A DNA stretch of 64,000 nt from Amycolatopsis lexingtonensis (GTDB lineage Bacteria; Actinomycetota; Actinomycetes; Mycobacteriales; Pseudonocardiaceae). Below the pieces are notes generated by a model. The model searched no databases. It was not told the origin of the DNA and worked only from the letters and a program-made list of their open reading frames with translations. Below, piece by piece: positions 10,545-30,421 of the stretch. A program made the translations under genes and the position numbers. The DNA is taken from contig NZ_JADBEG010000001.1 in NCBI RefSeq assembly GCF_014873755.1, positions 8,902,501-8,966,500 of the forward strand. The letters are read 5' to 3'. Each line of letters starts with the position of its first letter. The first letter of the stretch is position 1.

Positions 10545-12107
10545 TTACAGCAGTGGCGGCACCGCGGCGTCGATGAGGTGCGGACCGGGCTCGGCGAAGG
10601 CGCGCTGCAGCTGTTCGGCGAGCTCTTCGGCGGTGGTCGCCCGCGTCGCGGGAACACCCATGCCCTCCGCGATCTTCACGAAGTCCATGTCCGGACGCGA
10701 AAGGTCGAGCAGGTCGTTCGCCTTCGGTCCGCCCGACGCCGCGCCGACCCGCTGCAGCTCCAGCCGCAGGATCGCGTACGCGCGGTTGTTGAGCAGCACC
10801 GTCGTGACGTTCAGGTTCTCGCGCGCCTGCGTCCAGAGCGCCGAGATCGTGTACAACGCGCTGCCGTCCGATTGCAGGTTCAGGACGGGACGGTCCCGTC
10901 CCGCCACTGCCGCGCCGGTCGCGACCGGCATGCCGTAGCCGATCGCGCCGCCGGTGAGCGTCAGGACGTCGTGGCGCGGCGCACCCGCGGTCGCCGCCGG
11001 CAGCATCAGGCCGGACGTGTTGGCCTCGTCGGCGATGATCGCGTTCTCCGGCAGCAGCGCACCGATGACGTCGACCCAGTTCTGCGGAGTCAGCGGCCCG
11101 GTCGGCAGTGCGGGCCGGGACGGCTCCTGCAGCACCGGTTCGATGTCCGCGGCGACGAGTTCCGCGACTTCGTTCAGCGCGCGCGTGACGTCCTGGCCGA
11201 CGGACGCGAGCGTGTGCACCTGCGCACTTTCCGGCGTAAGGTCGCTTGCCTTACCCGGGTAGGCGAAAAACGACACCGGCGCCTTCGTGCCCGCGACGAC
11301 GAGGTGCTTGATCCCGTCGAGCTGGTACGCGACCTGTTCGGCGAGGTAGCCCAGACGCTCGATGTTCGGCAGGCCCGCACCGCGCTCCAGACGAGACGGG
11401 AACGTCTCGACGAAAGTCTTCGCTCCGGTCGCGGCGGCGATGCGGCTCGCCGCGCGCAGCCCCTCCTCGCGACACGCGCCACCGCCGATGAGCAGCGCGA
11501 CCGGCTCGCCGGTGCCGAACACCGCGGCGACGTCCTTGACGGTCGTGGCGTCGACGGCCTGCGGCACGCGCGGCGGGATCGGCGCGCAGGTCTCGCCACC
11601 GTCACCCCACGAAGCGTCCGCGGGCAGGATCAGCGTCGCGACGCGGCCAGGCGCGTCCTGGGCCGCAGCGACCGCGGCGGCGGCGTCGGCCCCGACGTCC
11701 TTGGTGTGCTCCGAGCGCCGCACCCAGCCTTCCAGCGAGCCCGCGACGGCCTCGATGTCCGACTCCAGCGGGGCGTCGTACTGCTTGTGGTAGGTCGCGT
11801 GGTCGCCGACGACGTTGACGATCGGCGTGTGCGCGCGCCGCGCGTTGTGCAGGTTCGCCAGGCCGTTGCCCAGGCCCGGGCCGAGGTGCAGCAGCGTCGC
11901 GGCGGGCTTGTCCGCGATGCGCGCGTAGCCGTCGGCGGCACCGGTGACGACGCCTTCGAACAGCGCGAGCACGCCCCGCATCTCCGGGACGGTGTCGAGC
12001 GCTGCGACGAAGTGCATCTCCGACGTGCCGGGGTTCGCGAAGCACACCTCGACGCCGGCGTCGACCAGCGTGCGGATCAGGGACTGGGCGCCGTTCAGCT
12101 CACTCAT
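10545..12107 (-). CDS. Thiamine-pyrophosphate enzyme (acetolactate synthase/benzoylformate decarboxylase-like)
   Basis: A 520-residue member of the three-domain TPP enzyme family. The Pyr domain carries the conserved catalytic Glu51 (LALFEGVVTGAADGYAR); the PP domain near residues 370-430 has GGAIGYGMPVATGAAVA and LQSDGSALYTISALWTQ, the diphosphate-binding GDG-type site with Ser-Asp-Gly, followed by VLLNNRAYAIL. Such enzymes cleave or join 2-keto acids. Its start overlaps the stop of the FAD-linked oxidase upstream by 4 nt, so the two act together, perhaps oxidising a 2-hydroxy acid and then decarboxylating the 2-keto acid; this is inference. Codons around PGKASDLTPES are rare and contain a GTAAGG/CCTTAC dyad. 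Confidence 0.88.
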   Translation of the reverse strand: MSELNGAQSLIRTLVDAGVEVCFANPGTSEMHFVAALDTVPEMRGVLALFEGVVTGAADGYARIADKPAATLLHLGPGLGNGLANLHNARRAHTPIVNVVGDHATYHKQYDAPLESDIEAVAGSLEGWVRRSEHTKDVGADAAAAVAAAQDAPGRVATLILPADASWGDGGETCAPIPPRVPQAVDATTVKDVAAVFGTGEPVALLIGGGACREEGLRAASRIAAATGAKTFVETFPSRLERGAGLPNIERLGYLAEQVAYQLDGIKHLVVAGTKAPVSFFAYPGKASDLTPESAQVHTLASVGQDVTRALNEVAELVAADIEPVLQEPSRPALPTGPLTPQNWVDVIGALLPENAIIADEANTSGLMLPAATAGAPRHDVLTLTGGAIGYGMPVATGAAVAGRDRPVLNLQSDGSALYTISALWTQARENLNVTTVLLNNRAYAILRLELQRVGAASGGPKANDLLDLSRPDMDFVKIAEGMGVPATRATTAEELAEQLQRAFAEPGPHLIDAAVPPLL

Positions 12108-13489
12108 GCTGTTCCTTCGGGGAAGAGAACGCCGGGGTTGAGGATCCCGGCGGGGTCGAAGCTCTGCTTGATCCGGCGCATCAGCTCGATCTTCGCCGGG
12201 TCTTCGAGTTCCTGGTGGTAGCTCGCCTTGGTGCGGCCGAGGCCGTGCTCGCCGGAGATCGCGCCGCCCAGCTCCATGGCGTACGCGAAGATGTCGGTTA
12301 ACAGCTGCTTACGCTTGTCGGCGTCCTTGCAGAAGATCCCGAAGTGGACATTGCCGTCGCCGGCGTGGCCGCAGCCGAGCGCGCCCCCGCCCGCGGCCAT
12401 CGCGAGCTCGCGCGACTTGGCGATGAACTCCGGCATCGCGGTCCGGGGCACGACGACGTCGATGATGTCGTCGGCGCCGGCCGCCTTCGCTGTCCAGAAG
12501 GCCTTCTCTCGCGCTTCGATCAGCTTCCGCGCGGCGGGGCCTTCGAGCACGTAGACGTCGGTCGCGCCGAGCTCGCCGAGCAGCTCTCCGACCGTCTCGA
12601 CGTCCTCGTGCAGACGGTCGCCGTCCCGGTTCTCCAGCGCGACTACAAGGTAAGCCTCGCTGGTCTCGCGGATCTTGTCCGGGACGCCGAGCTCGAGCTT
12701 CTCGTTGTAGACGATGGCGGCCATCGTCAGGTTGTCGATGTACTCGAGGATGTGCGGCGCCAGCCCGCTGGAGAGGATCGCCGGTACGGCAGCCATCACC
12801 TGGGGGAGATTGCCGAACGGGGCGAGCACCGTGGCACCGTGGGACAGCCGCGGGTGCAGCTTGACGGTGATCTCGGTGGCCAGCGCGAGGGTGCCTTCGG
12901 AGCCGATGATCAGCTGCGTGAGGTCGTAGCCGGTGGAGATCTTCGACGTCTTGCCGCCGGTCCGGAGGATCTCGCCGGTGGGCAGGACGGCTTGCAGGCC
13001 CAGCACGTTGTTCCGGGTGACGCCGTACTTGACCGCGCGCATCCCGCCGGCGTTGGTCCCGACGTTCCCGCCGACGCTCGCGCTCAGTTCGCCGGGGTAG
13101 ACGGTGTAGCTCAGGCCGGCTTCGGCGGTCTTGGCGTCGAGTTCGGCGAGCGTGACGCCGGGCTGCACGACGGCGACGTGGTTCCCGGTGTCGATCTCCA
13201 GGACGGCGTTCATGCGCTCGAACGAGATCAGCAGCCCGTCTTCGCGAGGCCGCGCGGCACCGGACAGGCCGCTCCCGGAGCCGCGCGCGGTCACGGGGAT
13301 GTTGTGCTCCGAAGCCGCTTTCAGCAGCTCCGCGACTTCCTCGGCGGTTGCCGGCTTCGCGACGTACGCGGGCTTCTGCGGCTTCGCCGTCAGTGCCTCG
13401 TCGTGCGCGTAGTCCTCGGAGATCGCCTCGCCCGTGAGCAGGTTCTTGTCCCCGACGATCCCGGCCAGCTGTGCCGCCACGTCGCCCAT
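12104..13489 (-). CDS. FAD-linked oxidase (GlcD/D-lactate dehydrogenase family)
   Basis: A 461-residue flavoprotein of the vanillyl-alcohol-oxidase fold. The FAD domain shows VTARGSGSGLSGAARP, YPGELSASVGGNVGTNAGGMRAVKYG and IGSEGTLALATE; the C-terminal domain has GCGHAGDGNVHFGIF, GAISGEHGLGRTK and the ending FDPAGILNPG, all typical of glycolate/D-lactate oxidases. It oxidises a 2-hydroxy acid to the 2-keto acid, probably passing electrons to a quinone or flavoprotein. It is first in an operon with the TPP enzyme. GGAGG lies 9 nt before ATG 13489. The substrate is not determined by sequence. Confidence 0.92.
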   Translation of the reverse strand: MGDVAAQLAGIVGDKNLLTGEAISEDYAHDEALTAKPQKPAYVAKPATAEEVAELLKAASEHNIPVTARGSGSGLSGAARPREDGLLISFERMNAVLEIDTGNHVAVVQPGVTLAELDAKTAEAGLSYTVYPGELSASVGGNVGTNAGGMRAVKYGVTRNNVLGLQAVLPTGEILRTGGKTSKISTGYDLTQLIIGSEGTLALATEITVKLHPRLSHGATVLAPFGNLPQVMAAVPAILSSGLAPHILEYIDNLTMAAIVYNEKLELGVPDKIRETSEAYLVVALENRDGDRLHEDVETVGELLGELGATDVYVLEGPAARKLIEAREKAFWTAKAAGADDIIDVVVPRTAMPEFIAKSRELAMAAGGGALGCGHAGDGNVHFGIFCKDADKRKQLLTDIFAYAMELGGAISGEHGLGRTKASYHQELEDPAKIELMRRIKQSFDPAGILNPGVLFPEGTA

Positions 13490-15033: not shown

Positions 15034-15531
15034 TCAGGCTCGCGCGAACGAGAGCGTCTCGCCCTCCACGCCCCGCAGCCATAGGTCCTGCGCGGCCGCC
15101 GCCATCTCGGCCAGGCCCTCCTCGATCGTGGCGAACACGTTGCCGGGCACCCAGCCCGCGTCGCCGTTGATCAGCAGGTTGTTGCGCCCGTAGAAGATCG
15201 CCAGGTCGGTCGCGCCCTGGTCGCTGTGCGCTTCGCTGTCGTCGTCGTAGCCGTACGCCGGGTTGCCGATCTCCCAGGCCTCGAACCCGAAGTAGACGAC
15301 ATCGCCGGGGATCGGCGTGATCGTCGGGTTCTCCCGCCCGGGCTTCGGCTCCGCGAACGGCGGCACGAGCGTGTAGACCTCGTTGCGCGCGTACTTCGCG
15401 TGGTAGGCCGAACCACTCTGCGGCAGCGCGTCCCATACCGCTTTGCACGTCCGCGGTGCCTCGTCGTCGAGCAGCCGGGCCCGGCAGGACACCCCGCGCT
15501 TGTCGAGGGTGATCGTGATGTACCGGGCCAT
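15034..15531 (-). CDS. DUF3830 family protein (cyclophilin-like fold)
   Basis: A 165-residue protein beginning MARYITITLDKRGVSCRARLL and containing TCKAVWDALPQSGSAYHAKYARNEVYTLVPP and GDVVYFGFEAWEIG, a pattern I recognise as DUF3830, placed in the cyclophilin-like superfamily. Members recur next to amidases, Asp/Glu racemases and GntR regulators, all of which occur in this locus, but no activity is established to my knowledge. ATG 15531 starts 2 nt after the aminotransferase stop, so the two are translationally linked. The frame continues open upstream but only antisense to nothing conserved. A conserved Asp/Gly-rich loop (YGYDDDSEAHSDQGATDLAIFYGRNN) may hold a ligand site. Confidence 0.82.
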   Translation of the reverse strand: MARYITITLDKRGVSCRARLLDDEAPRTCKAVWDALPQSGSAYHAKYARNEVYTLVPPFAEPKPGRENPTITPIPGDVVYFGFEAWEIGNPAYGYDDDSEAHSDQGATDLAIFYGRNNLLINGDAGWVPGNVFATIEEGLAEMAAAAQDLWLRGVEGETLSFARA

Positions 15532-15533
15532 GC

Positions 15534-16790
15534 TCAGCTCCCCGTGACGGACGCGACGACCTCGCCCCAGATGCGCAGCGCGTCGTCGACCTGTTCGGCG
15601 TTGACGACGAGCGGCGGCACCATGCGGACGACGTTCATGTACGGCCCGCAGGTGAGCAGCAGCAGGCCGTTCTTCGACGCGGTCTGCTGCGCGGCCGCCG
15701 CCGTCGCCGCGTCGGGTTCGCCGTCCGCGGTGGTGAACTCCGAGCCGACCAGCAGCCCGAGCCCGCGCACCTCGCCGATCGCCGGCGTCTTGTCCGCGAT
15801 CACCCGCGCCCCTTCGAGCAGCTGCCGTCCGCGCTCGGCGGCGTTCTCCACCAGGTTCTCCTGCTGGATGACCTCGAGCGTCGCGATCGCGGCCGCGCAC
15901 GAGACGGCGTTGCCGCCGTACGTGCCGCCCTGCGAACCCGGGAACGCCTTCGCCATCAGCTCCTGCGAAGCGGCGATGCCGGACAGCGGGAAGCCGCTCG
16001 CCAGTCCCTTCGCGATGAGCACGATGTCGGGGGAGACGCCGAAGTGGTCGTGGCCCCAGAACTTGCCGGTGCGGCCGAAGCCGGTCTGGATCTCGTCGAC
16101 GACGAGCAGGATGCCGTGCCGGTCGGCGCGCTCGCGCAGACCCGCCATGAACTCGGTGTTCGCCGGGACGTACCCGCCCTCGCCGAGCACCGGCTCGACG
16201 AAGATCGCGGCGGTCTCGTTGGGCGCGCTGACCGTCTGGAACAGGAAGTCCAGCTCGCGCAGCGCGAACTTCGTCGCGGTCTGCTCGTCCCAGCCGTAGT
16301 GATAGGCGTAGGGGAACGGCGCGACGTGCACGCCCGCCATCAGCGGGCCGATGCCGGCGCTGAACCGCGTCCCGGACGTCGTCATCGACGCCGCCGCGAC
16401 CGTCCGGCCGTGGAAGCCGCCCTGCATGACGATGACGTTCGGGCGCTTCGTCGCCTGCCGCGCGAGCCGCAACGCCGCTTCGACGGCTTCGCTGCCCGAG
16501 TTCGCGTAGAAGAGCGAGTCCAGCCCCTCCGGCAGGACGTCGCCGAGGCGCTTGGTGAGCTCGAGCAGGGGCTGGTGCATCACCGTCGTGTACTGCCCGT
16601 GGACGAGCTTGCCGATCTGCTCCTGCGCCGCGCGCACGACGTGCGGGTGGCAGTGCCCGGTGCTCGTGACGCCGATGCCGGCGGTGAAGTCGAGGTGGCG
16701 TTTGCCGTCGACGTCGTAGAGGTAAACCCCTTCACCGTGGTCGACCACGACGGGCGTTGCCTGCTTGAGCAGCGGAGATAGCTGGGCCAT
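15534..16790 (-). CDS. Class III pyridoxal-phosphate aminotransferase (4-aminobutyrate type)
   Basis: A 418-residue omega-amino-acid aminotransferase. The PLP lysine is K261 in DIVLIAKGLASG, the pyridine-nitrogen Asp is D232 in LLVVDEIQTGFGRTG, and NSGSEAVEAALRLAR plus GGFHGRTVAAASM form the phosphate and ring-stacking sites. Such enzymes move the terminal amino group of GABA, beta-alanine, ornithine or diaminobutyrate to a keto acid. It is divergent to an aldehyde dehydrogenase that would take the resulting semialdehyde, with an operator between them. Start ATG 16790. The exact omega-amino acid is uncertain, since GABA is only the default guess. Confidence 0.9.
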   Translation of the reverse strand: MAQLSPLLKQATPVVVDHGEGVYLYDVDGKRHLDFTAGIGVTSTGHCHPHVVRAAQEQIGKLVHGQYTTVMHQPLLELTKRLGDVLPEGLDSLFYANSGSEAVEAALRLARQATKRPNVIVMQGGFHGRTVAAASMTTSGTRFSAGIGPLMAGVHVAPFPYAYHYGWDEQTATKFALRELDFLFQTVSAPNETAAIFVEPVLGEGGYVPANTEFMAGLRERADRHGILLVVDEIQTGFGRTGKFWGHDHFGVSPDIVLIAKGLASGFPLSGIAASQELMAKAFPGSQGGTYGGNAVSCAAAIATLEVIQQENLVENAAERGRQLLEGARVIADKTPAIGEVRGLGLLVGSEFTTADGEPDAATAAAAQQTASKNGLLLLTCGPYMNVVRMVPPLVVNAEQVDDALRIWGEVVASVTGS

Positions 16791-16826
16791 GGCAGCGTGC
16801 TCCTAGGTCGGTTGAGCGGGTTGTCG

Positions 16827-16838
16827 ATTGTTGACAAT
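16827..16838. promoter_or_regulatory. GntR-type operator ATTGTTGACAAT, site A
   Basis: A dyad with 5-bp arms ATTGT/ACAAT lies in the 92-nt divergent promoter between the aminotransferase (start 16790) and the aldehyde dehydrogenase (start 16883). The same word recurs at 21768 and 22686, each time upstream of genes in this locus. It fits the TTGTnnACAA style seen for FCD-type GntR proteins. Confidence 0.7.
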
Positions 16839-16882
16839 ATCCATAGCATGGCCCTCGGGACAACACGTGAGGAGCAGTCGGG

Positions 16883-18346
16883 ATGAGCGCGAGCACCGAA
16901 TCCGGCGTCGTCGACGCGGTCGGCAAGGAACTGTTCATCGGCGGCAAGTGGGTCGCCGCCGAGTCCGGGAAGACCTTCCCGGTGGTCGACCCGGCCACCG
17001 GCAAGGAGCTGTGCCAGGTCGCCGACGCCTCCCCGGCGGACGGCCTCGCCGCGCTGGACGCCGCCGTCGCCGCGCAATCGGACTTCGCGAAGATGGCGCC
17101 GCGGGAGCGCGGTGAGATCCTGCGCCGGGCGTACGAGCTGCTGATGAAGCGCCAGGAGGAGCTGGCGCTGCTCATGACGCTCGAGATGGGCAAGCCGCTC
17201 GCCGAGTCGAAGGGCGAGATCGCCTACGCCGCGGAGTTCTTCCGCTGGTTCGCCGAAGAGGCCGTCCGCATCGACGGCGGCTTCGCGACCGCCCCGAACG
17301 GCGTGGGCCGGTTCCTCATCACGAAGCAGCCGGTCGGCCCGACGCTGCTGATCACGCCGTGGAACTTCCCGATGGCGATGGGCACGCGCAAGATCGGCCC
17401 GGCGATCGCCGCGGGCTGCACGTCGGTGATCAAGCCCGCCGCGCAGACGCCGCTGTCGATGCTCGCGCTGGCCGGCATCCTCGCCGAAGCCGGGCTGCCC
17501 GAAGGCGTGCTCAACGTCATCACGACCAGCGACTCCGGCGGCGTGATGGAGCCGCTGATCCGCGACGGACGCGCCCGCAAGCTCTCGTTCACCGGCTCCA
17601 CCGGCGTCGGCCGCAAGCTGCTGGAGCAGTGCGCCGACAAGATCCTCCGCACGTCGATGGAGCTGGGCGGCAACGCGCCGTTCCTGGTCTTCGACGACGC
17701 CGACATGGACGCGGCCATCGACGGCGCGATGCAGGCGAAGATGCGCAACATCGGCGAGGCGTGCACCGCGGCGAACCGGTTCTACGTGCAGCGCGGCGTC
17801 GTCGAGGAGTTCTCGCGGCGGCTGACCGAGCGCATGCAGGCGCTGCCGATGGGGCGCGGCACCGAGAAGGACGTCGTGGTCGGCCCGCTGATCGACGACA
17901 AGGCCGTCGACAAGGTCACGGAGCTGGTCAAGGACGCCACGGACCGCGGTGCGCGCGTGCTCACCGGCGGTGCCGGCGTCGACGGGCCCGGCCACTTCTA
18001 CCAGGCCACGGTGCTCACCGACGTCCCGCAGGACGCGCGGCTGACGCACGAGGAGATCTTCGGGCCGGTCGCGCCGATCACCCCGTTCGACACCGAGGAA
18101 GAGGCGGTGGCGAAGGCGAACGACACCGAATTCGGGCTCGTCTCCTACGTCTTCACCAGCGACCTCAAGCGCGCGCTGCGCGTGTCCGAGGCCCTCGAAG
18201 CCGGCATGATCGGGCTCAACCAGGGCATCGTGTCGAACCCGGCGGCGCCGTTCGGCGGGATCAAGGCGTCCGGCCTCGGCCGCGAGGGCGGCACGGTCGG
18301 CATCGAGGAGTTCCTGGAGACCAAGTACATCGCGGTGGCCCTGTGA
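16883..18346 (+). CDS. gabD: NAD(P)-dependent aldehyde dehydrogenase (succinate-semialdehyde dehydrogenase type)
   Basis: A 487-residue aldehyde dehydrogenase that oxidises a semialdehyde to the acid. The catalytic Cys is C294 (GEACTAANRFYV), the general-base Glu is E260 (SMELGGNAP), the oxyanion Asn is N161 (TPWNFPMAM), and FTGSTGVGRKLL is the cofactor turn. The closest pattern is GabD, and its location across from a class III aminotransferase supports that role, but malonate- or related semialdehydes remain possible. The start ATG 16883 is preceded by GAGGAG. Its stop overlaps the GTG of the following dehydrogenase gene by 4 nt (GTGA), implying coupled translation. Confidence 0.9.
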   Translation: MSASTESGVVDAVGKELFIGGKWVAAESGKTFPVVDPATGKELCQVADASPADGLAALDAAVAAQSDFAKMAPRERGEILRRAYELLMKRQEELALLMTLEMGKPLAESKGEIAYAAEFFRWFAEEAVRIDGGFATAPNGVGRFLITKQPVGPTLLITPWNFPMAMGTRKIGPAIAAGCTSVIKPAAQTPLSMLALAGILAEAGLPEGVLNVITTSDSGGVMEPLIRDGRARKLSFTGSTGVGRKLLEQCADKILRTSMELGGNAPFLVFDDADMDAAIDGAMQAKMRNIGEACTAANRFYVQRGVVEEFSRRLTERMQALPMGRGTEKDVVVGPLIDDKAVDKVTELVKDATDRGARVLTGGAGVDGPGHFYQATVLTDVPQDARLTHEEIFGPVAPITPFDTEEEAVAKANDTEFGLVSYVFTSDLKRALRVSEALEAGMIGLNQGIVSNPAAPFGGIKASGLGREGGTVGIEEFLETKYIAVAL

Positions 18347-19401
18347 CGACCTACCGCTTGGCGAGCATCCCCGGTGACGGGATCGGTGTCGACGTCACGG
18401 TCGAGGCCCGCAAGGTCCTCGACCGGGCGGCCGCCCGCTTCGGCTTTTCCTTGGAGTGGAACGAATTCGACTGGAGTTGCGAAAGGTACGCGCAACTCGG
18501 CGCGATGATGCCGGAAGACGGTGTCGCGCAGCTTTCGGCGTACGACGGGATCCTGCTCGGCGCGGTCGGCTTTCCCGGGGTGCCGGACCACGTTTCGCTG
18601 TGGGGCCTGCTGATCCCGCTGCGGCGCGCGTTCCAGCAGTACGTCAACCTGCGCCCGGTGCGGCTGCTCCCGGGCACGACGTCCGTGCTGGCCGGGCGGA
18701 AGGCCGAGGAGCTGGAGCTGGTCATCGTCCGCGAGAATTCCGAAGGCGAGTACTCCGCGATCGGCGGGCGGCACAACGCCGGGCGGCCGGACGAGTTCGT
18801 CGTGCAGGAATCGGTGTTCACGCGCGTCGGCGTCGAACGGATCATCCGGTACGCCTTCGAGCTGGCGCGTACGCGGTCTTCGCGCGTTTGCTCGGCGACG
18901 AAGTCCAACGGCCTGATCCACTCGATGCCGTTCTGGGACGAGATCTTCGCCGAGGTCGCCGCCGATTTCCCGGATGTCCACAGTGAACAGATGCACGTGG
19001 ATGCACTGGCCGCGCGGATGGTTCAGGCGCCGGACCGGCTCGACGTCGTGGTGGCGTCGAACCTCTTCGGCGACATCCTGAGCGACCTGGCGGCCGCGAT
19101 CACGGGTGGTCTCGGCATGGCGCCGTCCGGCAACATCAACCCATCGGGTGAATCCCCGTCGATGTTCGAGGCGGTCCACGGGAGCGCTCCGGACATCGCC
19201 GGACAGGGGATCGCGAACCCCGTGGCGCAGATCCTGGCGGCCGCGATGCTGGTCGAACACCTGGGCGAAACCGTTGCCGCACAAGCGATCCGCGCCGCCG
19301 TGGACCGCGTCCTCGACGAGGGCCGCGTGCGCACCCCCGACCTCGGCGGCACGGATACCACAGAACGGCTCGGCACGGCGGTGGCCGAAGCACTGGGCTG
19401 A
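18343..19401 (+). CDS. Isocitrate/isopropylmalate-family dehydrogenase (tartrate / D-malate dehydrogenase type)
   Basis: A 352-residue decarboxylating dehydrogenase of the beta-hydroxyacid family. SIPGDGIGVDVT is the N-terminal motif, VIVRENSEGEYSAIGGR is the signature of the tartrate/D-malate subgroup, and LDVVVASNLFGDILSDLAAAITGGLGMAPSGNIN carries the metal-binding aspartates. Members oxidise D-malate, tartrate or 3-isopropylmalate with NAD and Mn. GTG 18343 overlaps the aldehyde dehydrogenase stop, so both enzymes belong to one pathway. The presence of a 2-hydroxydicarboxylate oxidase beside semialdehyde enzymes suggests that the pathway yields malate-like intermediates; this is inference. 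Confidence 0.88.
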   Translation: MTTYRLASIPGDGIGVDVTVEARKVLDRAAARFGFSLEWNEFDWSCERYAQLGAMMPEDGVAQLSAYDGILLGAVGFPGVPDHVSLWGLLIPLRRAFQQYVNLRPVRLLPGTTSVLAGRKAEELELVIVRENSEGEYSAIGGRHNAGRPDEFVVQESVFTRVGVERIIRYAFELARTRSSRVCSATKSNGLIHSMPFWDEIFAEVAADFPDVHSEQMHVDALAARMVQAPDRLDVVVASNLFGDILSDLAAAITGGLGMAPSGNINPSGESPSMFEAVHGSAPDIAGQGIANPVAQILAAAMLVEHLGETVAAQAIRAAVDRVLDEGRVRTPDLGGTDTTERLGTAVAEALG

Positions 19402-19461
19402 GTTTTTGTCGGTGCCCTCCGGCACGGTGGCCACAAGCCCACCGAGGGGGAGGAGAAACCG

Positions 19462-19932
19462 ATGTGCTGGCAATGTGAAAACCCGGATCGGCCACAGTCC
19501 GATTACCTGACGATGCTCCAGGAGAAGGTGGCCGACCGGGGCTGGCTCGTGCAAGGCGTGGAGGGCAACGAGCTGTATCCGCCGTGGGCCTACACGATCG
19601 GGCTCAGCGGGTACGGCCTGCCCGAACTGGTCACGACCGGCTTACCGCTCGAGGAAGCCGCCGAACTGCTCAACGACCTCGCGTCGCACGCGCTGCACGC
19701 GTCGCCACCCGAGCCGGGGGAGCGCATTCCGCTGCGGGACGGTCCGCTGGTCGAGGTCGTCCCGCTGACGGAGCCGTCGGCGCACCTGGTGTTCGCGGTC
19801 GCCCTGTACGGCCCGGAAATCCGTGCGCTGCAACTGGTCCACGCGGACGAGCAGGGCCGCTGGCCGTGGTCGCCCGACTTCCGCGACGGCAGAGGCGGCC
19901 AGCCGGTGCTGGGGGTGCGCCGTGCCGGCTGA
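19462..19932 (+). CDS. DUF4262 domain protein
   Basis: A 156-residue protein with the DUF4262 start MCWQCENPDRPQSDYLTML, then GWLVQGVEGNELYPPWAYTIGLSGYGLPELVTTGL. The family is common in actinobacteria and uncharacterised; the N-terminal Cys-x-x-Cys might bind a metal. A very good site GGGGGAGGAG precedes ATG 19462. It follows the dehydrogenase by 60 nt in the same direction, but its role in that pathway is doubtful, because DUF4262 genes occur in many contexts. Confidence 0.85.
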   Translation: MCWQCENPDRPQSDYLTMLQEKVADRGWLVQGVEGNELYPPWAYTIGLSGYGLPELVTTGLPLEEAAELLNDLASHALHASPPEPGERIPLRDGPLVEVVPLTEPSAHLVFAVALYGPEIRALQLVHADEQGRWPWSPDFRDGRGGQPVLGVRRAG

Positions 19933-20278
19933 CTGCGCGTGCAGAGTGCCCAGGAACTGCTTCCCGATACCCGTGCCGGCGGTCCACGCGCGCGTGCCGT
20001 CCGGCCGGGTGGGGATGGTGACCGTCCGGCTGGACGAGCCGGCCTGGGTGGACGAGCGCGGTGCCTGGACGGACGAAACGGCCGGCCGGGCAGGGGAATC
20101 GGCCGCGTGGCGGGCCGAACCGGCGGCATCCGTGGACGAGCCGGCGGCGGCGGAACCGGCCGCGGACGAGCGGGCCGCGGCGTCGGAGGAATGGGCGGAC
20201 GAGCCGGGCGACGAGGTGCGCGGGCCGTCCGTCACGGTCCGCGTGTCGCCCCTGCGGTCGCGCTTGGCGGCCTTCCGG
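19933..20278. other. Low-complexity spacer rich in GGACGAG and CCGGC words
   Basis: This 346-nt gap between the DUF4262 and GntR genes is built of short recurring words such as GACGAGCCGGC and GGCGG. One frame on the plus strand would give an acidic Ala/Glu/Asp-rich chain and one on the minus strand a Ser/Ala-rich chain, neither with a plausible start or conserved motif. I read it as non-coding or as the eroded 3' end of a gene. Confidence 0.5.
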
Positions 20279-20998
20279 TCACGCGTTTCCCGGTACCGGC
20301 GGCGCGTGCCCGTCCCGGAGGCTGGTGCCGGGCGCGAGCCGCTGCACCGCGTCCTCCATGTGCGCCTCGAGGAGTGCCAGCGCCGTCTCCTCGTCGCCGT
20401 CCCGCAGCGCCTGGATGAGCTTCGTGTGCTCTTCCACGCGTTCTTCGACCCGCTGGTAAGTGCCCTGCAGCGCGGTGAGGCACATCCGCGTCTCGATGAG
20501 GAGCGTCCGGGCCATCCGGACGAGCCGCTTGCTGCCGGAAGCGTCGATGAGGGCCTCGTGGAACTTGAGGTCCGCGGTGGAGAGCGCGTTCGGATCGTCT
20601 TCACTGGCGGCGGTCGCCATCTCCGCGACGGTGTGTTCGAGCAGGTCCGCGATCCGGTCACGGTCCCCGCCGCGCAGCGCGCGAAGCATGGCGGCGCGTT
20701 CGATCGCCGTGCGAGCTGCGTAAATGTCGTAGACGTCCCCGGGCTCGAGGTCGATCACGAACAGCCCGCGGTGCCGCTCGCTGCGCAGGAGTCCCTCGGA
20801 GACCAGATGCTGCATGGCCTCCCGGAGCGGCCCCCGTGACACCTGGAACCGTGCGGCCAGCTCGGTTTCGCCGAGCTGGGTCCCGGGCGGGAGGGCGCCG
20901 GTCATGATCGCGTCACGCAGCTGACGGGCGATGACGGCGGCCGTCGACTCGCGGCTGACCGGCTCGATCTCGGGCAGCATGCCCGGCGGCAGGGCCAT
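20279..20998 (-). CDS. GntR family transcriptional regulator, FCD/FadR subfamily
   Basis: A 239-residue repressor-type regulator. A winged helix at about residues 15-85 (AVIARQLRDAIMTGALPPGTQL, ELAARFQVSRGPLREAMQHLVSEGLL) is followed by the all-helical FCD ligand domain, with the metal-site residues in FHEALIDASGS and the His-containing VEEHTKLIQALRDGD. It lies 1 nt after the racemase-family gene and is co-transcribed with it from a promoter carrying operator site B. Three copies of that operator in this locus indicate autoregulation plus control of the two other units. The inducer is likely a carboxylic acid from the pathway. Confidence 0.93.
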   Translation of the reverse strand: MALPPGMLPEIEPVSRESTAAVIARQLRDAIMTGALPPGTQLGETELAARFQVSRGPLREAMQHLVSEGLLRSERHRGLFVIDLEPGDVYDIYAARTAIERAAMLRALRGGDRDRIADLLEHTVAEMATAASEDDPNALSTADLKFHEALIDASGSKRLVRMARTLLIETRMCLTALQGTYQRVEERVEEHTKLIQALRDGDEETALALLEAHMEDAVQRLAPGTSLRDGHAPPVPGNA

Positions 20999-20999
20999 G

Positions 21000-21746
21000 T
21001 CAGGCGCTCCCGTCCGGCAGATGCCGGAAGAGGGCGCCGAGCGAGCGGACGAGGCGGTGCCGCCCGGTCAGGCGCAGCCCCTCCCACACCGTGACCTGGT
21101 TGGCGGTCAGCACGGGCTTCTTCAGCGCGGCTTCGATGGCGTTGATCTCGGCGAGGGTCCGCATCGCGGTGTCCGGCACGAAGACGGCGTCGGCGTCGTC
21201 GTGGTCGTGGCGCACGGCGAGCTCGACGACGGCCTCCGGGCTCATGGCGCCGACTTCGGCGGCCGTGATGATGTCCGCGCTGGCCATGGACACGACCTCG
21301 ATGCCGCCGGTCTTGAGGAAGTCGACGAACAGCCGGGCGATGTCGTCCGGGTAGCTGGCGGCCACGGCGACCCGCTTGACGCCCAGGGCGTGCGCGGCGT
21401 GCACGAACGCGAAGGAGGTGCTGGAGGCCGGGACCCCGGCGACGGCGGACAGGCGGTCGGCCTGGTCACGGGCGCCGTCCCAGCCGTAGACGAAGCTGCC
21501 GCTGGTGCAGGCCCAGATGATCGCGTCGGGCTCGTGCTTCTTGAGCAGCGCGGCGCCGTCGGCGAGGCGGCTTTCGCTGCCGAGGTCGAGCAGTTCGGCC
21601 ACCGCGTGCTTGTCGGTGCCGTAGATGTGCTCGACCGCGAGCCGGATGTCGCCCTCGTCGGCGGCCATGCCGCCGAGCAGCTGCTCGGCCAGCCGGTAGT
21701 CGTCTTCGGCCGCGTGGTCGGGGTAGATGAAACCGATGGTGGTCAC
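21000..21746 (-). CDS. Asp/Glu racemase superfamily protein, single-cysteine type
   Basis: A 248-residue protein related to maleate cis-trans isomerase and arylmalonate decarboxylase. The first catalytic cysteine is present, C80 in IIWACTSGSFVYG, but the second cysteine position is replaced by a Pro-Asp-Thr sequence (VFVPDTAMRTL, residues 189-197). Two-cysteine chemistry is therefore impossible, and a decarboxylase, lyase or binding role is more likely than racemisation. GTG 21746 has a perfect GGAGG 5 nt upstream. It forms an operon with the GntR gene, and its promoter holds operator B. Confidence 0.88.
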   Translation of the reverse strand: MTTIGFIYPDHAAEDDYRLAEQLLGGMAADEGDIRLAVEHIYGTDKHAVAELLDLGSESRLADGAALLKKHEPDAIIWACTSGSFVYGWDGARDQADRLSAVAGVPASSTSFAFVHAAHALGVKRVAVAASYPDDIARLFVDFLKTGGIEVVSMASADIITAAEVGAMSPEAVVELAVRHDHDDADAVFVPDTAMRTLAEINAIEAALKKPVLTANQVTVWEGLRLTGRHRLVRSLGALFRHLPDGSA

Positions 21747-21767
21747 GGAACCTCCGGAGGGACGCAA

Positions 21768-21779
21768 ATTGTCGACAAT
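21768..21779. promoter_or_regulatory. GntR-type operator ATTGTCGACAAT, site B
   Basis: A perfect 12-bp palindrome 21 nt upstream of GTG 21746, in the promoter of the racemase-GntR operon. It shares 11 of 12 positions with sites A and C and implies autoregulation by the GntR protein. Confidence 0.72.
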
Positions 21780-21880
21780 GCTAGAGGGGTGGTCAAGGAA
21801 AACCTTCACGACCTGCCGGGCGCTCCCCGACATGTTCGTCCACGTCGAAGTCGCTCCGGGCGCCGGGCGGGCGCGTTCTC

Positions 21881-22621
21881 TCAAGACACGTCACGAAGCC
21901 ACTTCCCGGGTCCGACGATCGGGAGGCCCATCCGACGCAGGCACGCCCACATCGTCAGCTGGTTGGCGGTGAGCACCGGCTTGCCGAGCGCGGCCTCCAG
22001 CGGCTCGATCAGGTCGTAGGTGGGGAGGTTGGTGCAGCTGACGAAGATCGCTTCGGCCTCGCCGTGGTCGGCGGCGAGGATGCGCTCGGCGATGGTCCGG
22101 TAGCTGACCTTCCAGATGCCGCCGCCCAGCCCGAGGTGGTCGCTGGCGACCGTCTCGACGTTCAGCTCGCCCAGGAAGTCGTGCAGGGCCTGGGTGAGGT
22201 CGCCGTCGTACGGCGTAAGCACCGAGACGCGGTGCAGGTCGAGCTGGTGCAGCACCTCGGCCAGCGCGCCCGAGGTGGTGACCGCGTCCGGCGCGCCCGC
22301 GTCGCAGATCGCCTTCGTCAGCGAGCGCTCGTAGTCGACGCCGTTGACGAAGCTGCCGGACGTGCAGAGGTAGGCGACGACCTCGGGCTCGACGTGCAGG
22401 ACGTCGCGGGTGGCGCTGGCCAGGTGGTGGCTGTCGCTGACGAGGCGTGCCATCTCCATGCTGACCGGCACCGGTTCGTACGGCGTGCGGGCGAGGTGGA
22501 GGGACACCTCCATCGGGACCCAGCGCCAGAGTTCGCGCTCCAGCGCGAGGTCGAACGGGGCGATCACACCGATGCCCCGCTGGGCCAGCGGGCCGTCGAA
22601 CGCCAGGAAGTCGAAATCCAA
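21881..22621 (-). CDS. Maleate isomerase-like Asp/Glu racemase family protein, two-cysteine type
   Basis: A 246-residue paralogue of the downstream protein. Both active-site cysteines of the superfamily are in place: C86 in VAYLCTSGSFVNG and C196 in AIFVSCTNLPTYDLIEPLE, as in maleate cis-trans isomerase and EutA. It should be able to isomerise or racemise a small dicarboxylate or amino-acid derivative through a cysteine thiol pair. The gene is divergent to the hydroxyacid dehydrogenase with operator C between, and is separated from its paralogue by 134 nt. The actual substrate is unknown. Confidence 0.9.
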   Translation of the reverse strand: MDFDFLAFDGPLAQRGIGVIAPFDLALERELWRWVPMEVSLHLARTPYEPVPVSMEMARLVSDSHHLASATRDVLHVEPEVVAYLCTSGSFVNGVDYERSLTKAICDAGAPDAVTTSGALAEVLHQLDLHRVSVLTPYDGDLTQALHDFLGELNVETVASDHLGLGGGIWKVSYRTIAERILAADHGEAEAIFVSCTNLPTYDLIEPLEAALGKPVLTANQLTMWACLRRMGLPIVGPGKWLRDVS

Positions 22622-22685
22622 GGCTCAGCCTCCGGAATACGTCTGCACTTGATGACACGTCCGGTGCTCCGGGGGTCGTTCCTCG

Positions 22686-22699
22686 GATTGTTGACAATC
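22686..22699. promoter_or_regulatory. GntR-type operator GATTGTTGACAATC, site C
   Basis: A dyad with 6-bp arms GATTGT/ACAATC lies between the divergent maleate-isomerase-like gene (start 22621) and the 2-hydroxyacid dehydrogenase gene (start 22726). It contains the same core as sites A and B. Confidence 0.72.
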
Positions 22700-22725
22700 A
22701 TACGAGCCGCTTTTACCGTGTCAAC

Positions 22726-23724
22726 GTGATCGCCTCGGAAAACCAGGAAGCTCCGGTCCTGGCAGTGCTCTGTGGCGAGCACCGCCCACCGGACATGCGT
22801 GCTGTCGAATCCGGGGCGGTCGTGCGTTACACGGACGCCGCGGGTCTGGCCGAAGCGTTGTCCGGAGCGGACGCGTTGTTCGTCTACGACTTCCTCTCCA
22901 CGGCCGTGCCCGGAGCCTGGCACGCGGCCGATCGCCTGCGCTGGCTGCACATCGCGAGCGCGGGCGTCGACCCGGTGCTGTTCCCCGGGCTGGTGGAAAG
23001 CGACGTGGTCCTGACGAATTCGCGGGGAGTCTTCGACGACGCCATCGCGGAGTACGTGCTCGGCGTCGTCCTCGCGTTCGCGAAGGACTTCGCGCGGTCG
23101 CACGACCTGCAGCGCGAGGGCCGCTGGCTGCACCGCGAGAGCGAGCGGATCGCCGGGCGCGAGGTGGTGGTCGTCGGCACCGGGCCGATCGGCCGGGCCA
23201 TCGCGCGGCTGCTGCGCGCCGCCGGGATGCGGGTGAGCGGAGCCGGGCGCCGGGAGCGCACCGGGGACCCCGACTTCGGTGTCGTGCACGAGTCCGCGCG
23301 GCTCACCGAGGTGCTGCCGCACGCCGACTACGTCGTCGCCGTGGCGCCGCTGACCGAGCACACCAAAGGCATGTTCGACGCGCGCGCGTTCGCCGCGATG
23401 AAGCCGTCGGCGCGGTTCGTCAACGTCGGGCGGGGCGAGCTGGTCGTGACGTCCGACCTGGTCGACGCGCTCCGGAGCGGGTCCATCGCCGGCGCCGCGC
23501 TCGACGTGTTCGACACCGAGCCGCTGCCGCCGGAAAGCCCGCTGTGGACCCTGCCGGACGTGCTGGTCTCGCCGCACATGTCCGGTGACTTCGTCGGCTG
23601 GCGGAACACGCTGGTCGAAGTGTTCGCGGAGAACTTCCGCCGCTGGCGCGCCGGGGAACCGCTGCGCAATGTCGTCGACAAGACGCTCGGCTACGTGCCG
23701 TCGGGGAACCAGGGAGCCGGATGA
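22726..23724 (+). CDS. D-isomer-specific 2-hydroxyacid dehydrogenase
   Basis: A 332-residue NAD-dependent dehydrogenase reducing or oxidising D-2-hydroxy acids and 2-keto acids. The Rossmann site is VVVVGTGPIGRAIARLL; catalytic Arg lies in FVNVGRGELVVTSDLV, Glu in DVFDTEPLPPESPLW and His in VLVSPHMSGDF. The start GTG 22726 lacks a ribosome site. Its stop overlaps the ATG of the amidase gene (ATGA). Operator C sits upstream. It likely processes a hydroxy or keto acid generated in the same GntR-controlled pathway. Confidence 0.92.
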   Translation: MIASENQEAPVLAVLCGEHRPPDMRAVESGAVVRYTDAAGLAEALSGADALFVYDFLSTAVPGAWHAADRLRWLHIASAGVDPVLFPGLVESDVVLTNSRGVFDDAIAEYVLGVVLAFAKDFARSHDLQREGRWLHRESERIAGREVVVVGTGPIGRAIARLLRAAGMRVSGAGRRERTGDPDFGVVHESARLTEVLPHADYVVAVAPLTEHTKGMFDARAFAAMKPSARFVNVGRGELVVTSDLVDALRSGSIAGAALDVFDTEPLPPESPLWTLPDVLVSPHMSGDFVGWRNTLVEVFAENFRRWRAGEPLRNVVDKTLGYVPSGNQGAG

Positions 23725-25094
23725 ACGACAGGATGCTGACCGCCAGTGAGCTCGTCGCCGCCTACGCGACCGGCGAGCTTTCGCCGATCGAGGCGACGCA
23801 GAACGCGCTGCAGGCCATCGAAGCCCGGGACGGCGAGTGCAACGCCTACTGCCTCGTCGACGCCGACCAGGCGCTGGAGCAGGCCAAGGCGTCCGAGATC
23901 CGCTGGCGGGACGGGAACCCGATCGGCTGGCTCGACGGCGTGCCCGCGTCGATCAAGGACATGTTCCTCACGCAGGGCTGGCCGACCGTCCGCGGCTCGC
24001 AGAGCATCAGCCCGGACCAGCCGTGGGACGTCGACAGCCCGGTCGCCGCGCGGATGCGCGAGGCGGGCCTGGTGCTGCTGGGCAAGACGACCACGCCCGA
24101 GATCGCGTGGAAGGGCGTCACGGACAGCCCGCTGTGCGGCATCACGCGCAACCCCGTCGACCCGTCCAAGACGGCCGGCGGGTCGAGCGGTGGCAGCGCC
24201 GCGGCGGTCGCGGCCGGGATGGGCGAACTGTCGGTCGGCACCGACGGCGGCGGCTCGGTGCGGATCCCGGCGTCGTTCTGCGGCATCGTCGGGCTCAAGC
24301 CGACGCACGGCCGCATCCCGCTGTACCCGGCGAGCCCGTTCGGGCCGCTCTCGCACGCCGGGCCGATGGCGCGCTCGGTGGACGACACCGCGCTGCTGCT
24401 GGACGTCCTGTCGATTCCGGACCACCGCGACCCGGCCGCGCTGGCGCCGCCGGTGGCGTCGTTCCGCGAGGCCGTCCGGCGGGACGTGCGCGGCCTGATC
24501 GCGGCGTTCTCGCCGACGCTCGGCTACGTCGACGTCGACCCGGAGGTGGCGGCGATCGTCGCCTCGGCGGTGTGCGCGCTGGGTGACGCGGGACTGCACA
24601 TCGAGGAGACCGACCCCGGTTTCGCGGACCCGAAACCGGCGTTCGACATCCTGTGGTCGTCGGGCGCGGCGAAGCTGCTCGGCACGTTCCCGCCGGGCTC
24701 GGAGGAGCGGACTGACCCGGGCCTGCGCAAGGTCTGGGAGCTCGGCAAGACGTGGAGCGCGAGCGACTACCTCGACGCGACGGCCGAACGCGCGGCGCTC
24801 GGCATCCTGATGGGCGAGTTCCACACGCGCTACGACGTGCTGATCACCCCGACCCTCCCGATCGCGGCGTTCGAGGCGGGCCACAACGTGCCGCCGGGCA
24901 GCGGGCTGAGCGAGTGGCCGGAGTGGACGCCGTTCACGTACCCGTTCAACATGACGCAGCAGCCGGCGATCAGCGTCCCGGCGGGGCGGACGTCGGAGGG
25001 GCTGCCGGTGGGCCTGCAGATCGTCGGCCCGCGTCACTCGGACGACCTCGTGCTCGCCGTCGCGAAGCTGCTGGAGGAAGTGCGGCCCTGGTGA
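23721..25094 (+). CDS. Amidase, amidase-signature family
   Basis: A 457-residue hydrolase with the Ser-cisSer-Lys triad: K79 in GVPASIKDMF, S155 in AGGSSGGSAAAVAAG and nucleophile S179 in DGGGSVRIPA. It cleaves a carboxamide to the acid and ammonia. Family members act on many amides and the sequence does not reveal which. The 4-nt overlap with the hydroxyacid dehydrogenase gene and the shared operator make it part of the catabolic regulon; it may perform the first step, releasing an acid that the aminotransferase, dehydrogenases and racemase-like proteins then use. Confidence 0.92.
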   Translation: MNDRMLTASELVAAYATGELSPIEATQNALQAIEARDGECNAYCLVDADQALEQAKASEIRWRDGNPIGWLDGVPASIKDMFLTQGWPTVRGSQSISPDQPWDVDSPVAARMREAGLVLLGKTTTPEIAWKGVTDSPLCGITRNPVDPSKTAGGSSGGSAAAVAAGMGELSVGTDGGGSVRIPASFCGIVGLKPTHGRIPLYPASPFGPLSHAGPMARSVDDTALLLDVLSIPDHRDPAALAPPVASFREAVRRDVRGLIAAFSPTLGYVDVDPEVAAIVASAVCALGDAGLHIEETDPGFADPKPAFDILWSSGAAKLLGTFPPGSEERTDPGLRKVWELGKTWSASDYLDATAERAALGILMGEFHTRYDVLITPTLPIAAFEAGHNVPPGSGLSEWPEWTPFTYPFNMTQQPAISVPAGRTSEGLPVGLQIVGPRHSDDLVLAVAKLLEEVRPW

Positions 25095-27319: not shown

Positions 27320-28279
27320 ATGCGTACGACGATCTTGGGCCGCAGCGGCCTCGAAGTGTCGAAGATCGCCTTCGGCACCTGGCAGCTGGGCGGCGACTGG
27401 GGCGCGTTCGACGAGGACACCGCGTTCGCCGCGATCCACCACGCGCGCGACCTGGGCGTGAACTTCTTCGACACCGCGCAGGCCTACGGCCGCGGCCGCT
27501 CCGAGGTGCTGCTCGGACGTGCGCTCCGGCACGCGGACGACGTCGTCATCGCCACCAAGGGCGGCATCAACCCGCGCGCCGAACGGCCGCGCGACTCCCG
27601 CCGCGCGTGGCTGACCAAGGGGCTCGACGAGAGCCTGCGCAACCTCGGCGTCGAGCACATCGACCTCTACCAGGTGCACTGGCCGGACCCGGACACGCCG
27701 GCCGCGGAGGTCGCCGGGCTGCTGCAGGAGTTCGTCGACGCCGGGAAGGTCCGGCACGTCGGCGTCTCCAACTACACCGCGGAACAGCTACGCGCCTTCG
27801 ACAGGACGCGGCCGGTCGAGACGCTCCAGCCGCCGTACCACCTGTTCCGGCGCGGCCTCGAGACCGATCCGCTGCCGTACGCCCGCGAGCACGACATCGG
27901 CGTCTTCGTCTACAGCCCGCTCGGCAGCGGCCTGCTCACCGGCGCGCTCACCCCGGACACGACGTTCGAGGCCACTGACTGGCGCTCGAAGTCCAGCGCC
28001 TTCCAGGGTGACAACCTGCGCCGGAACCTGAAGATCGTCGACGAGCTCAAGGCGTTCGCCACGCAGCGCGGCCTCGAAGTCGGGCAGCTCGCCATCGCCT
28101 GGGCGCTCGCCCGGCCCGGAGTGCACGCCGCCATCGTGGGCGCGCGCAGACCGGCGCACATCGAGGCGAGCATCGCCGCCGCCGATGTCGTGCTGACATC
28201 GGATGACTTGGCCGAGATCGACCGGATCGCCGCCGACGCCGTCCAGGTGGCCGGGGCCGCTCCCGAGGGCATCGTCTAG
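27320..28279 (+). CDS. Aldo/keto reductase
   Basis: A 319-residue oxidoreductase of a different branch from the one at 13670. It begins MRTTILGRSGLEVSKIAFGTWQLGGDWG. The tetrad is formed by Asp/Tyr in FFDTAQAYGRGRSE, Lys in VVIATKGGI and His in YQVHWPDPDTP; the C-terminal NADP site reads AAIVGARRPAHIEAS. ATG 27320 was chosen by this start. It is divergent from the ArsR-like gene and converges on pqqB with a 4-nt overlap. The substrate is unknown. Confidence 0.91.
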   Translation: MRTTILGRSGLEVSKIAFGTWQLGGDWGAFDEDTAFAAIHHARDLGVNFFDTAQAYGRGRSEVLLGRALRHADDVVIATKGGINPRAERPRDSRRAWLTKGLDESLRNLGVEHIDLYQVHWPDPDTPAAEVAGLLQEFVDAGKVRHVGVSNYTAEQLRAFDRTRPVETLQPPYHLFRRGLETDPLPYAREHDIGVFVYSPLGSGLLTGALTPDTTFEATDWRSKSSAFQGDNLRRNLKIVDELKAFATQRGLEVGQLAIAWALARPGVHAAIVGARRPAHIEASIAAADVVLTSDDLAEIDRIAADAVQVAGAAPEGIV

Positions 28280-30164: not shown

Positions 30165-30421
30165 GCGACGACCCGCCGTTCGCCCAGCCGCGCCAAGACG
30201 TCGAGGACGTCCTGCTCGCGGACGCCGGTGTAGCGCTGCTCCAGCACCGCGGTGATGTCCGTGACGGTCCGGGCGCCGTCGCAGAGTTCGAGCACCGCGG
30301 CCGCGGTGGCGTTCGGCACGAGGACGCCTTCCGGGAACAGCAGCACGTGTGTTTCCCGGACGTGGTCGAACGACAATCGGACACCCCGCCGGAGCTGCGG
30401 CACCGCGCTCGCCGTGATCAC
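30155..30421 (-). CDS. pqqD: PqqD, PqqA peptide chaperone
   Basis: An 88-residue RiPP-recognition-element protein that presents PqqA to PqqE. Typical blocks are LRRGVRLSFDHVRETHVLLFPEGVLVPNATAAAVLELCDG and VLARLGERRVV. GTG 30421 overlaps the pqqC stop (GTGA), and the 3' end runs 10 nt into pqqE. It is a free-standing PqqD, not fused to PqqC as in some bacteria. Confidence 0.95.
   Translation of the reverse strand: MITASAVPQLRRGVRLSFDHVRETHVLLFPEGVLVPNATAAAVLELCDGARTVTDITAVLEQRYTGVREQDVLDVLARLGERRVVAWT

Follow-up and report, generated by a model that had tools for sequence, protein, structure and literature searches.

Which compound is broken down by a set of catabolic genes that, as an exact set, belongs to no known pathway, and what controls these genes? 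The question is raised by a locus at positions 15034-25094 of the window, the whole stretch of 64,000 nucleotides of the Amycolatopsis lexingtonensis genome analysed here. The locus encodes a DUF3830 protein, a class III aminotransferase (AT), an aldehyde dehydrogenase (ALDH), a tartrate-dehydrogenase-type enzyme (TDH), a GntR regulator with an FCD domain (GntR-FCD), two proteins of the EutA/arylmalonate-decarboxylase family (R1 and R2), a D-2-hydroxyacid dehydrogenase (HADH) and an amidase-signature enzyme (AMID). Judged from sequence comparison, these genes are very probably controlled as one regulon by the GntR-FCD protein encoded at 20279-20998, and the enzymes seem, on balance, to break down an ectoine-type solute, that is, 5-hydroxyectoine and/or ectoine, or an acyl-diaminobutyrate derived from it. 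Ectoines are widespread salt protectants and also serve as nutrients.

One operator sequence at the promoters of the locus

The locus carries three exact copies of the palindromic 12-mer ATTGTYGACAAT (Table 1), all of which are intergenic. With up to two mismatches allowed, six strand-matches are found in the window, all within these three places; shuffled windows gave a mean of 1.36 matches and reached six in 1 of 100 shuffles. The 10,737,921-bp contig of the organism (10.74 Mb) contains the exact 12-mer at five places, the three in the window and positions 547559 and 552965, and the expectation from composition only is 0.09 (for the G+C of 0.71 found in the window). When one mismatch is allowed, there are 20 strand-matches genome-wide versus 3 for a reversed-pattern control. 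The shuffles, the genome count, the reversed-pattern control and the composition estimate together rule out a chance palindrome. An operator strewn across the genome is ruled out by the counts in this genome and in 24 genomes of the genus, of which, among the places listed, 17 contain exactly three and the other 7 between four and six. A first-pass annotation of this DNA had named random genome-wide scatter beforehand as the result that should sink the idea of a shared operator; the sites are few, and three of the five exact ones lie here.

The same annotation had placed the palindrome at 16827, 21768 and 22686, of which the first two positions are correct and the third has to be moved to 22687. 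It was right that the sites lie in promoter regions, all three being located between genes and next to the start of a named gene, but not that they define three operons, as they face five directions of transcription. The tie between the 12-mer and this gene set holds within the window but is not exclusive, because the 12-mer also occurs at another locus of this genome. From its position, operator 2 would allow autoregulation of the R1-GntR genes. Of 100 site-gene pairs from relatives in which the site faces HADH, 93 read ATTGTTGACAAT in the direction of HADH, and the hexamer TTGACA inside this sequence may be a -35 box that is covered once the repressor is bound.

Conservation of the regulon in relatives

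R1 was found in 36 of 246 genomes of a class-wide draw (E up to 1e-40), and at least 577 stretches of named genomes have a relative of it, which rules out a one-genome curiosity; the closest relative among the named genomes is that of Amycolatopsis eburnea (96%). Among the R1 neighbourhoods of the 35 genomes other than our own, the 12-mer is present in all 17 with a GntR gene, whereas the 18 without one have neither the 12-mer nor its 10-bp core. In 16 of the GntR-bearing genomes (the count leaves out G240, the locus of which does carry the motif), there are 49 exact ATTGTYRACAAT sites versus none for the reversed-pattern control. Of these, 42 lie within the locus and 7 outside. Three of the outside sites lie on the flanks of another regulon locus in G002, single sites stand in front of an unlinked DUF3830 gene (G090) and of an unlinked ALDH-TDH pair (G031), and two (G188 and G121) look like chance, judged by one look at the open reading frames (ORFs). 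Since the motif follows the GntR gene in relatives and 47 of the 49 sites stand at the same regulon genes, the earlier proposal of a single regulon under GntR-FCD is strongly supported. One point weighs against it: all 18 motif-negative loci come from one genus-level group (f20, g23), apparently Streptomyces-like, so that the contrast may reflect a single event.

The best 80 of the at least 577 loci in named genomes were examined by a loose rule (tblastn hits of 60 bits or more covering 40% of the query), with some loci ending at contig ends. They contain GntR in 80, the 12-mer and HADH in 79 each, AMID in 77, DUF3830 in 67, AT in 65, ALDH in 54 and TDH in 44, counts that include weak matches such as ALDH in L140 (32%) and AT in L175 and L176 (34%). 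Gene calls in relatives rely on G+C at codon positions and contain some shadow ORFs; the tallies therefore use tblastn and family models. In L175 (Mycolicibacter sp. MYC340), the HADH-operator-R2-R1 block occurs twice in one locus.

Linkage to ectoine importers

In the Streptomyces-like loci, R1 and, in most, HADH, R2, AMID and DUF3830 adjoin an ATP-binding cassette transporter. In the one such locus scanned (L079), four subunits exceed the cut-offs of the ectoine/hydroxyectoine importer models: EhuA (374.5 bits, cut-off 345.4), EhuB (261.8, 190.9), EhuC (215.7, 196.95) and EhuD (271.9, 205.2). In all 18 Streptomyces-like loci and in G002, an EhuB match over the cut-off lies no more than 8.5 kb from R1. 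In seven of these loci (L062, L064, L073 and L075-L078), only R1, or R1 and HADH, was found of the window genes and EhuB is still within 8.5 kb; R1 is therefore the part tied most closely to ehu in this group. Within the class draw, EhuB occurs in 31 of 36 genomes with R1 versus 8 of 210 without. The family of the organism gives a similar picture (90 genomes), with EhuB in 41 of 52 genomes that have R2 versus 7 of 38 that lack it. When only the first-listed genome of each genus is counted, the figures are 22 of 29 versus 3 of 17 (p 1.9e-4), which makes co-occurrence by shared ancestry alone less likely. A window-type locus of Allokutzneria, a member of the same family (L117), has EhuD and EhuA over the cut-off adjoining it. 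A Sinorhizobium ehu cluster includes an R1/R2-like gene (35% to R1 and 39% to R2), an aldehyde dehydrogenase gene and an aminotransferase gene annotated as ectB.

An MHS-type transporter, ProP-like by eye, adjoins the GntR gene in G002 (L071:6774-8168) with an operator in front of it, and another lies near the unlinked DUF3830 gene of G090 (L098:3879-5297). Such a transporter could be an alternative importer of the pathway.

A EutD-like hydrolase in the same clusters

In one genus (g8), 4 of 41 genomes have a EutD-like hydrolase, and the same four have R2 (p 1e-5). The genus would be Arthrobacter-like, because its DUF3830 protein is close to the solved protein 3kop, the source of which we take to be an Arthrobacter. 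Three of the four genomes (L199-L201), one of them only 68% complete, have a contiguous cluster in the order operator-ehuB-C-D-A, ridA, operator, R2, R1, operator, AMID-DUF3830-GntR, an M20 gene, a pyridoxal phosphate aminotransferase gene, the EutD-like gene, HADH, operator and AT; the Ehu proteins of L199 exceed the curated cut-offs. In the fourth, G002, the genes are distributed over two loci, and operators stand before ehuB and before HADH-EutD-like. The best solved match of the EutD-like protein is the ectoine hydrolase DoeA (352 bits), far ahead of the next one, an Xaa-Pro dipeptidase (78 bits). The EutD-like protein shares 44% and 46% identity with two proteins annotated as DoeA, and 47% with an M24 protein from a haloarchaeon. 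Clusters of Haladaptatus (EutD-like; 39%) and Mesorhizobium (ehu-eutA-doeAB; 30%) also encode D-2-hydroxyacid dehydrogenases. The neighbourhoods of R1-like genes in Natrononativus and Rhizobium jaguaris contain no genes named as ectoine genes.

An ectoine-type substrate is favoured because the gene set is tied by neighbourhood and operators to ectoine importers and to this EutD-like gene. The view that the enzymes match no known pathway thus stands for the exact set but not for its connections, and an amide-containing C4-C5 compound, the substrate suggested before, is no longer the best guess.

Weighing the substrate and the regulator

Several findings weigh against an ectoine-type substrate. 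First, the organism itself has neither marker protein over the cut-off: the best match to EhuB gives 65.9 bits (cut-off 190.9; other importer types were not searched) and that to EutD 65.5 bits (cut-off 613). EutD over the cut-off is found in none of the 36 genomes with R1, and EhuB is absent from 5 of them, our own included, and from 11 of the 52 genomes of the family with R2. Second, the EutD-like protein itself reaches only 416 bits in G002, and a similar one in L199 about 415, under the EutD cut-off. R1 and R2 likewise fall below the cut-off of the EutA model TIGR02990 (105.5 and 101.1 bits, cut-off 318). Third, identities to enzymes of known or putative ectoine clusters are modest, AT having 31-35% to four aminotransferases, and ALDH 44% to one from Caballeronia, with 37% and 34% to two more. 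Fourth, the g8 genomes have AMID and DUF3830 together with the EutD-like and M20 proteins; this weakens the idea that AMID and DUF3830 are straight stand-ins for EutD and EutE, as all four are present. Finally, EhuB is also found beside ectoine synthesis genes (L085:7036-11022 and L090:3942-7388, with EctB and EctC over their cut-offs in both and EctD in L085). Ehu thus marks ectoine makers too, and its co-occurrence with the core genes may reflect lifestyle. Membership in a canonical eut/doe cluster is ruled out by the lack of EutD and EhuB in this genome and by the EutA scores of R1 and R2.

Some of these points would suit a real regulon for another nitrogen compound, such as a lactam, an N-acyl diamino acid or the amide-containing C4-C5 acid suggested before, to which the Ehu- and EutD-like neighbours in other lineages would be adapted. 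The missing EhuB and EutD of this genome and the EutD-like scores agree with it, as do an amidase model that names no substrate and the resemblance of AT and ALDH to models of the gamma-aminobutyrate (GABA) and succinate-semialdehyde type, none of which is over its cut-off among the matches listed. However, four transporter subunits pass the ectoine/hydroxyectoine cut-offs in both L079 and L199, among solved proteins DoeA is by far the closest to the EutD-like protein, and the clusters are contiguous and operator-tagged. We regard such a compound as possible but distinctly the less probable substrate.

The resemblance of AT and ALDH to GABA aminotransferase and succinate-semialdehyde dehydrogenase could also mean that the regulon serves GABA-like or common amino acids, the Ehu link then following from how common both sets are among soil actinobacteria that make ectoine. 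The EhuB genes beside ectoine synthesis genes would fit this, as would the absence of the operator from the five EhuB loci of other genomes that were scanned out of 12 fetched, L085 and L090 included. It is improbable, given the adjacency of EhuB in every Streptomyces-like locus and in G002, the operators directly before ehuB in L199-L201 and G002, and an association that holds with one genome per genus.

The regulator has to be weighed as well, because the 12-mer also serves an aromatic meta-cleavage locus at 547-553 kb of the same genome that has an FCD GntR gene of its own. Three promoters there carry the two exact sites and a one-mismatch site at 552247 (L014:9560, 14966 and 14248 for 547559, 552965 and 552247). 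The locus matches a catechol 2,3-dioxygenase model with 328 bits (cut-off 320.2) and, for 4-carboxy-4-hydroxy-2-oxoadipate aldolase, PRK09262 with 317.2 (cut-off 179) and TIGR02798 with 278.9 (below the cut-off of 304.5). Over 74 residues at the DNA-binding end, the two FCD regulators share 34% identity, and one NCBIfam model is the best match of both. Because of this second regulator, the letters of the 12-mer alone do not tell which paralogue binds it, a point that counts against GntR-FCD as the regulator, and cross-talk between the two is possible. That the three operators mainly serve another regulator such as this one, 0.55 Mb into the genome, while the local GntR has a different role, is nevertheless improbable, since in relatives the motif follows the local GntR gene (with all negatives in one lineage) and none of the 7 outside sites in 16 genomes is at such an aromatic locus.

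A possible route for ectoine-type solutes

With an ectoine-type solute as the substrate, the route would most likely work like ectoine catabolism without the defining eut/doe features, as a non-canonical design. GntR-FCD would repress the genes from the three ATTGTYGACAAT operators and be released when a pathway intermediate accumulates. The ring or acyl group would be removed by AMID and/or DUF3830 in most lineages; one genus would also use its EutD-like hydrolase and M20 deacylase. Of all the steps, ring opening is the least secure. The R1/R2 pair would set the stereochemistry of a hydroxylated intermediate. AT and ALDH would then convert the terminal amino group into a carboxylate, yielding aspartate from diaminobutyrate or 3-hydroxyaspartate from hydroxy-diaminobutyrate. 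In the hydroxylated branch, TDH would oxidatively decarboxylate 3-hydroxyaspartate, and HADH would act on a D-2-hydroxy or 2-oxo acid. It is doubtful that the steps follow each other in exactly this order. Transamination followed by semialdehyde oxidation, already suggested in the first-pass annotation, stays plausible, since known ectoine catabolism converts diaminobutyrate to aspartate in this way.

TDH passes the curated tartrate dehydrogenase equivalog model and, by this score, is classed as a tartrate-dehydrogenase-type enzyme. It stands directly behind ALDH and would have no evident role after aspartate, but if the 5-hydroxyl is kept, the product would be 3-hydroxyaspartate. This compound is 3-aminomalate and so resembles the substrates of the TDH family. 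5-Hydroxyectoine has the configuration (4S,5S), and enzymes of the TDH family use the D-malate sense. By Cahn-Ingold-Prelog bookkeeping from (4S,5S), the hydroxyl carbon would become R, which is the D-malate sense. TDH is near the locus in only 44 of the best 80 of at least 577 loci, and a literature search pairing hydroxyectoine with hydroxyaspartate found nothing.

R1 and R2 are, by their model scores, members of the EutA family but not EutA equivalogs. They resemble known arylmalonate decarboxylases, maleate isomerases and EutA proteins in that their solved matches include the first two of these, and R2 has both Cys residues in 29 of 29 sequences. R1 differs, as none of 36 sequences has the second Cys (32 have Asp there) and 30 have the first; R1 as a plain two-Cys racemase is thus ruled out. 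Unlike in these known proteins, two dissimilar paralogues are kept side by side, which suggests that R1 and R2 act as a pair. In DUF3830, His45, Lys47, Arg50, Asn51, Glu52, Asp78, Asp110, Arg117, Asn118, Asn119 and Asp125 are invariant among 19 relatives, polar residues that may be enzyme-like. The 120 homologues listed of 1832 include no functional name, no match was found in plasmids, and no paper matched a literature search for DUF3830.

The boldest form of this proposal is that many actinobacteria have a new 5-hydroxyectoine/ectoine route mostly lacking EutD, in which DUF3830 and AMID open and deacylate the ring, R1 and R2 form one heteromeric stereo-enzyme, AT, ALDH and TDH take hydroxy-diaminobutyrate onward via 3-hydroxyaspartate, and a single GntR-FCD repressor acts on ATTGTYRACAAT. 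In that case DUF3830 would be given its first role as an enzyme. We consider it speculative and unlikely to hold in full.

Comparison with known ectoine gene clusters

In two papers, ectoine is reported to be converted through acetyl-diaminobutyrate and diaminobutyrate to aspartate, the last part by ssd and atf enzymes (PMC13188858, PMC5924519). The latter also describes, for Sinorhizobium meliloti, an aminotransferase and a succinate-semialdehyde dehydrogenase that are inducible by ectoine, a hydroxyacid dehydrogenase whose role in known ectoine clusters is undefined, and a proposal that EutA inverts the 5-hydroxyectoine hydroxyl. The EhuB importer is covered in PMC13342039.

The ectoine/hydroxyectoine clusters of Proteobacteria (ehuABCD or uehABC, eutABCDE/doeAB, ssd, atf, asnC and enuR) resemble the window locus in its EutA-family proteins, class III aminotransferase, aldehyde dehydrogenase and hydroxyacid dehydrogenase, and its relatives in EhuABCD and the EutD-like hydrolase. 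They differ in several respects. None of EutD, EutE/DoeB, EutB and EutC is found among the ten window proteins scanned (a genome-wide search for EutE/DoeB, EutB and EutC was not made), and the genome lacks EhuB and EutD. The window has two EutA-family paralogues together with AMID, DUF3830 and TDH, and its FCD GntR replaces the MocR-type EnuR and AsnC. Tartrate, D-malate and 3-isopropylmalate dehydrogenases are like TDH in the model that it passes and unlike it in that TDH stands directly behind ALDH in a regulon, with 3-hydroxyaspartate as its proposed substrate.

According to a 2026 survey (PMC13188858), ectoine breakdown had previously been undescribed in Gram-positive bacteria, and the putative clusters found there are called provisional. 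Together with haloarchaeal ones (PucR-eutBCD-atf type), they were found through EutD and EutB. Like the present loci, these are predicted from context and have variable transporters, and some, e.g., a Priestia plasmid cluster, combine EutD-like, amidohydrolase and aldehyde dehydrogenase genes. Unlike them, nearly all loci described here have no EutD and the window locus has no EutB. Among the matches listed, the literature searches, which left most subscription papers outside, returned nothing recognised as this locus, and a text search with the operator letters returned nothing that looked related. If the ectoine reading is true, a widespread actinobacterial system has mostly been missed by EutD-based searches, its probable regulator and operator can be named, and DUF3830 gains a functional context. 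The operator alone has already retrieved an unlinked DUF3830 gene, an unlinked ALDH-TDH pair and a EutD-like cluster, and could find more.

Gene content of the locus and its surroundings

Family models confirm all the families named in the first-pass annotation (DUF3830, Aminotran_3, Aldedh, Iso_dh, two Amdase-family proteins, 2-Hacid_dh and Amidase), and both the winged helix and the FCD domain of the GntR regulator inside the gene set. Its list was incomplete in one respect, as a DUF4262 gene also lies inside the locus. Among the best 80 named loci, tblastn matches to this gene are found only in those of Amycolatopsis, and it is probably a genus-level insertion, not a pathway gene. At the level of curated models, AMID scores 773.4 bits with NF004815 (cut-off 506), which is named only 'amidase'; ALDH is nearest to succinate-semialdehyde dehydrogenases (PRK11241, 576 bits, under the cut-off of 828), and AT is over the cut-off of none of the 25 NCBIfam models listed.

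Table 1. Genes and predicted operators of the locus (window positions)
Feature	Position	Strand	Evidence or context
DUF3830 gene	15034-15534	-	PF12903, 224.3 bits; solved homologue 3kop, uncharacterised
AT, class III aminotransferase	15534-16790	-	PF00202 (Aminotran_3), 402.5 bits
Operator 1 (predicted), ATTGTTGACAAT	16827-16838	.	Intergenic, divergent AT/ALDH
ALDH, aldehyde dehydrogenase	16883-18346	+	PF00171 (Aldedh), 539.3 bits
TDH, tartrate-dehydrogenase-type (Iso_dh)	18343-19401	+	TIGR02089, 509.1 bits, cut-off 470.4; overlaps ALDH end
DUF4262 gene	19462-19932	+	PF14081, 105.4 bits; between TDH and GntR
GntR-FCD regulator	20279-20998	-	PF00392, 64.3 bits; PF07729, 83.2 bits; last in R2-R1-GntR run
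R1, EutA/arylmalonate-decarboxylase family	21000-21746	-	PF17645, 89.2 bits; start read as GTG at 21746
Operator 2 (predicted), ATTGTCGACAAT	21768-21779	.	Upstream of R1-GntR, about 21 bp before R1, within R2-R1-GntR run
R2, EutA/arylmalonate-decarboxylase family	21881-22621	-	PF17645, 81.4 bits
Operator 3 (predicted), ATTGTTGACAAT	22687-22698	.	Intergenic, divergent R2/HADH
HADH, D-2-hydroxyacid dehydrogenase	22726-23724	+	PF02826 (2-Hacid_dh), 182.3 bits
AMID, amidase-signature enzyme	23721-25094	+	PF01425, 334.1 bits; overlaps HADH end

On either side of the locus, further ORFs were classified by eye, all on the minus strand. Overlapping ORFs at 10545-13489 of the window look like a thiamine-diphosphate (acetolactate-synthase-like) enzyme and a flavin adenine dinucleotide-linked oxidase of the glycolate/lactate type, and those at 28276-30464 resemble pyrroloquinoline quinone biosynthesis genes (PqqB- and PqqE-like).

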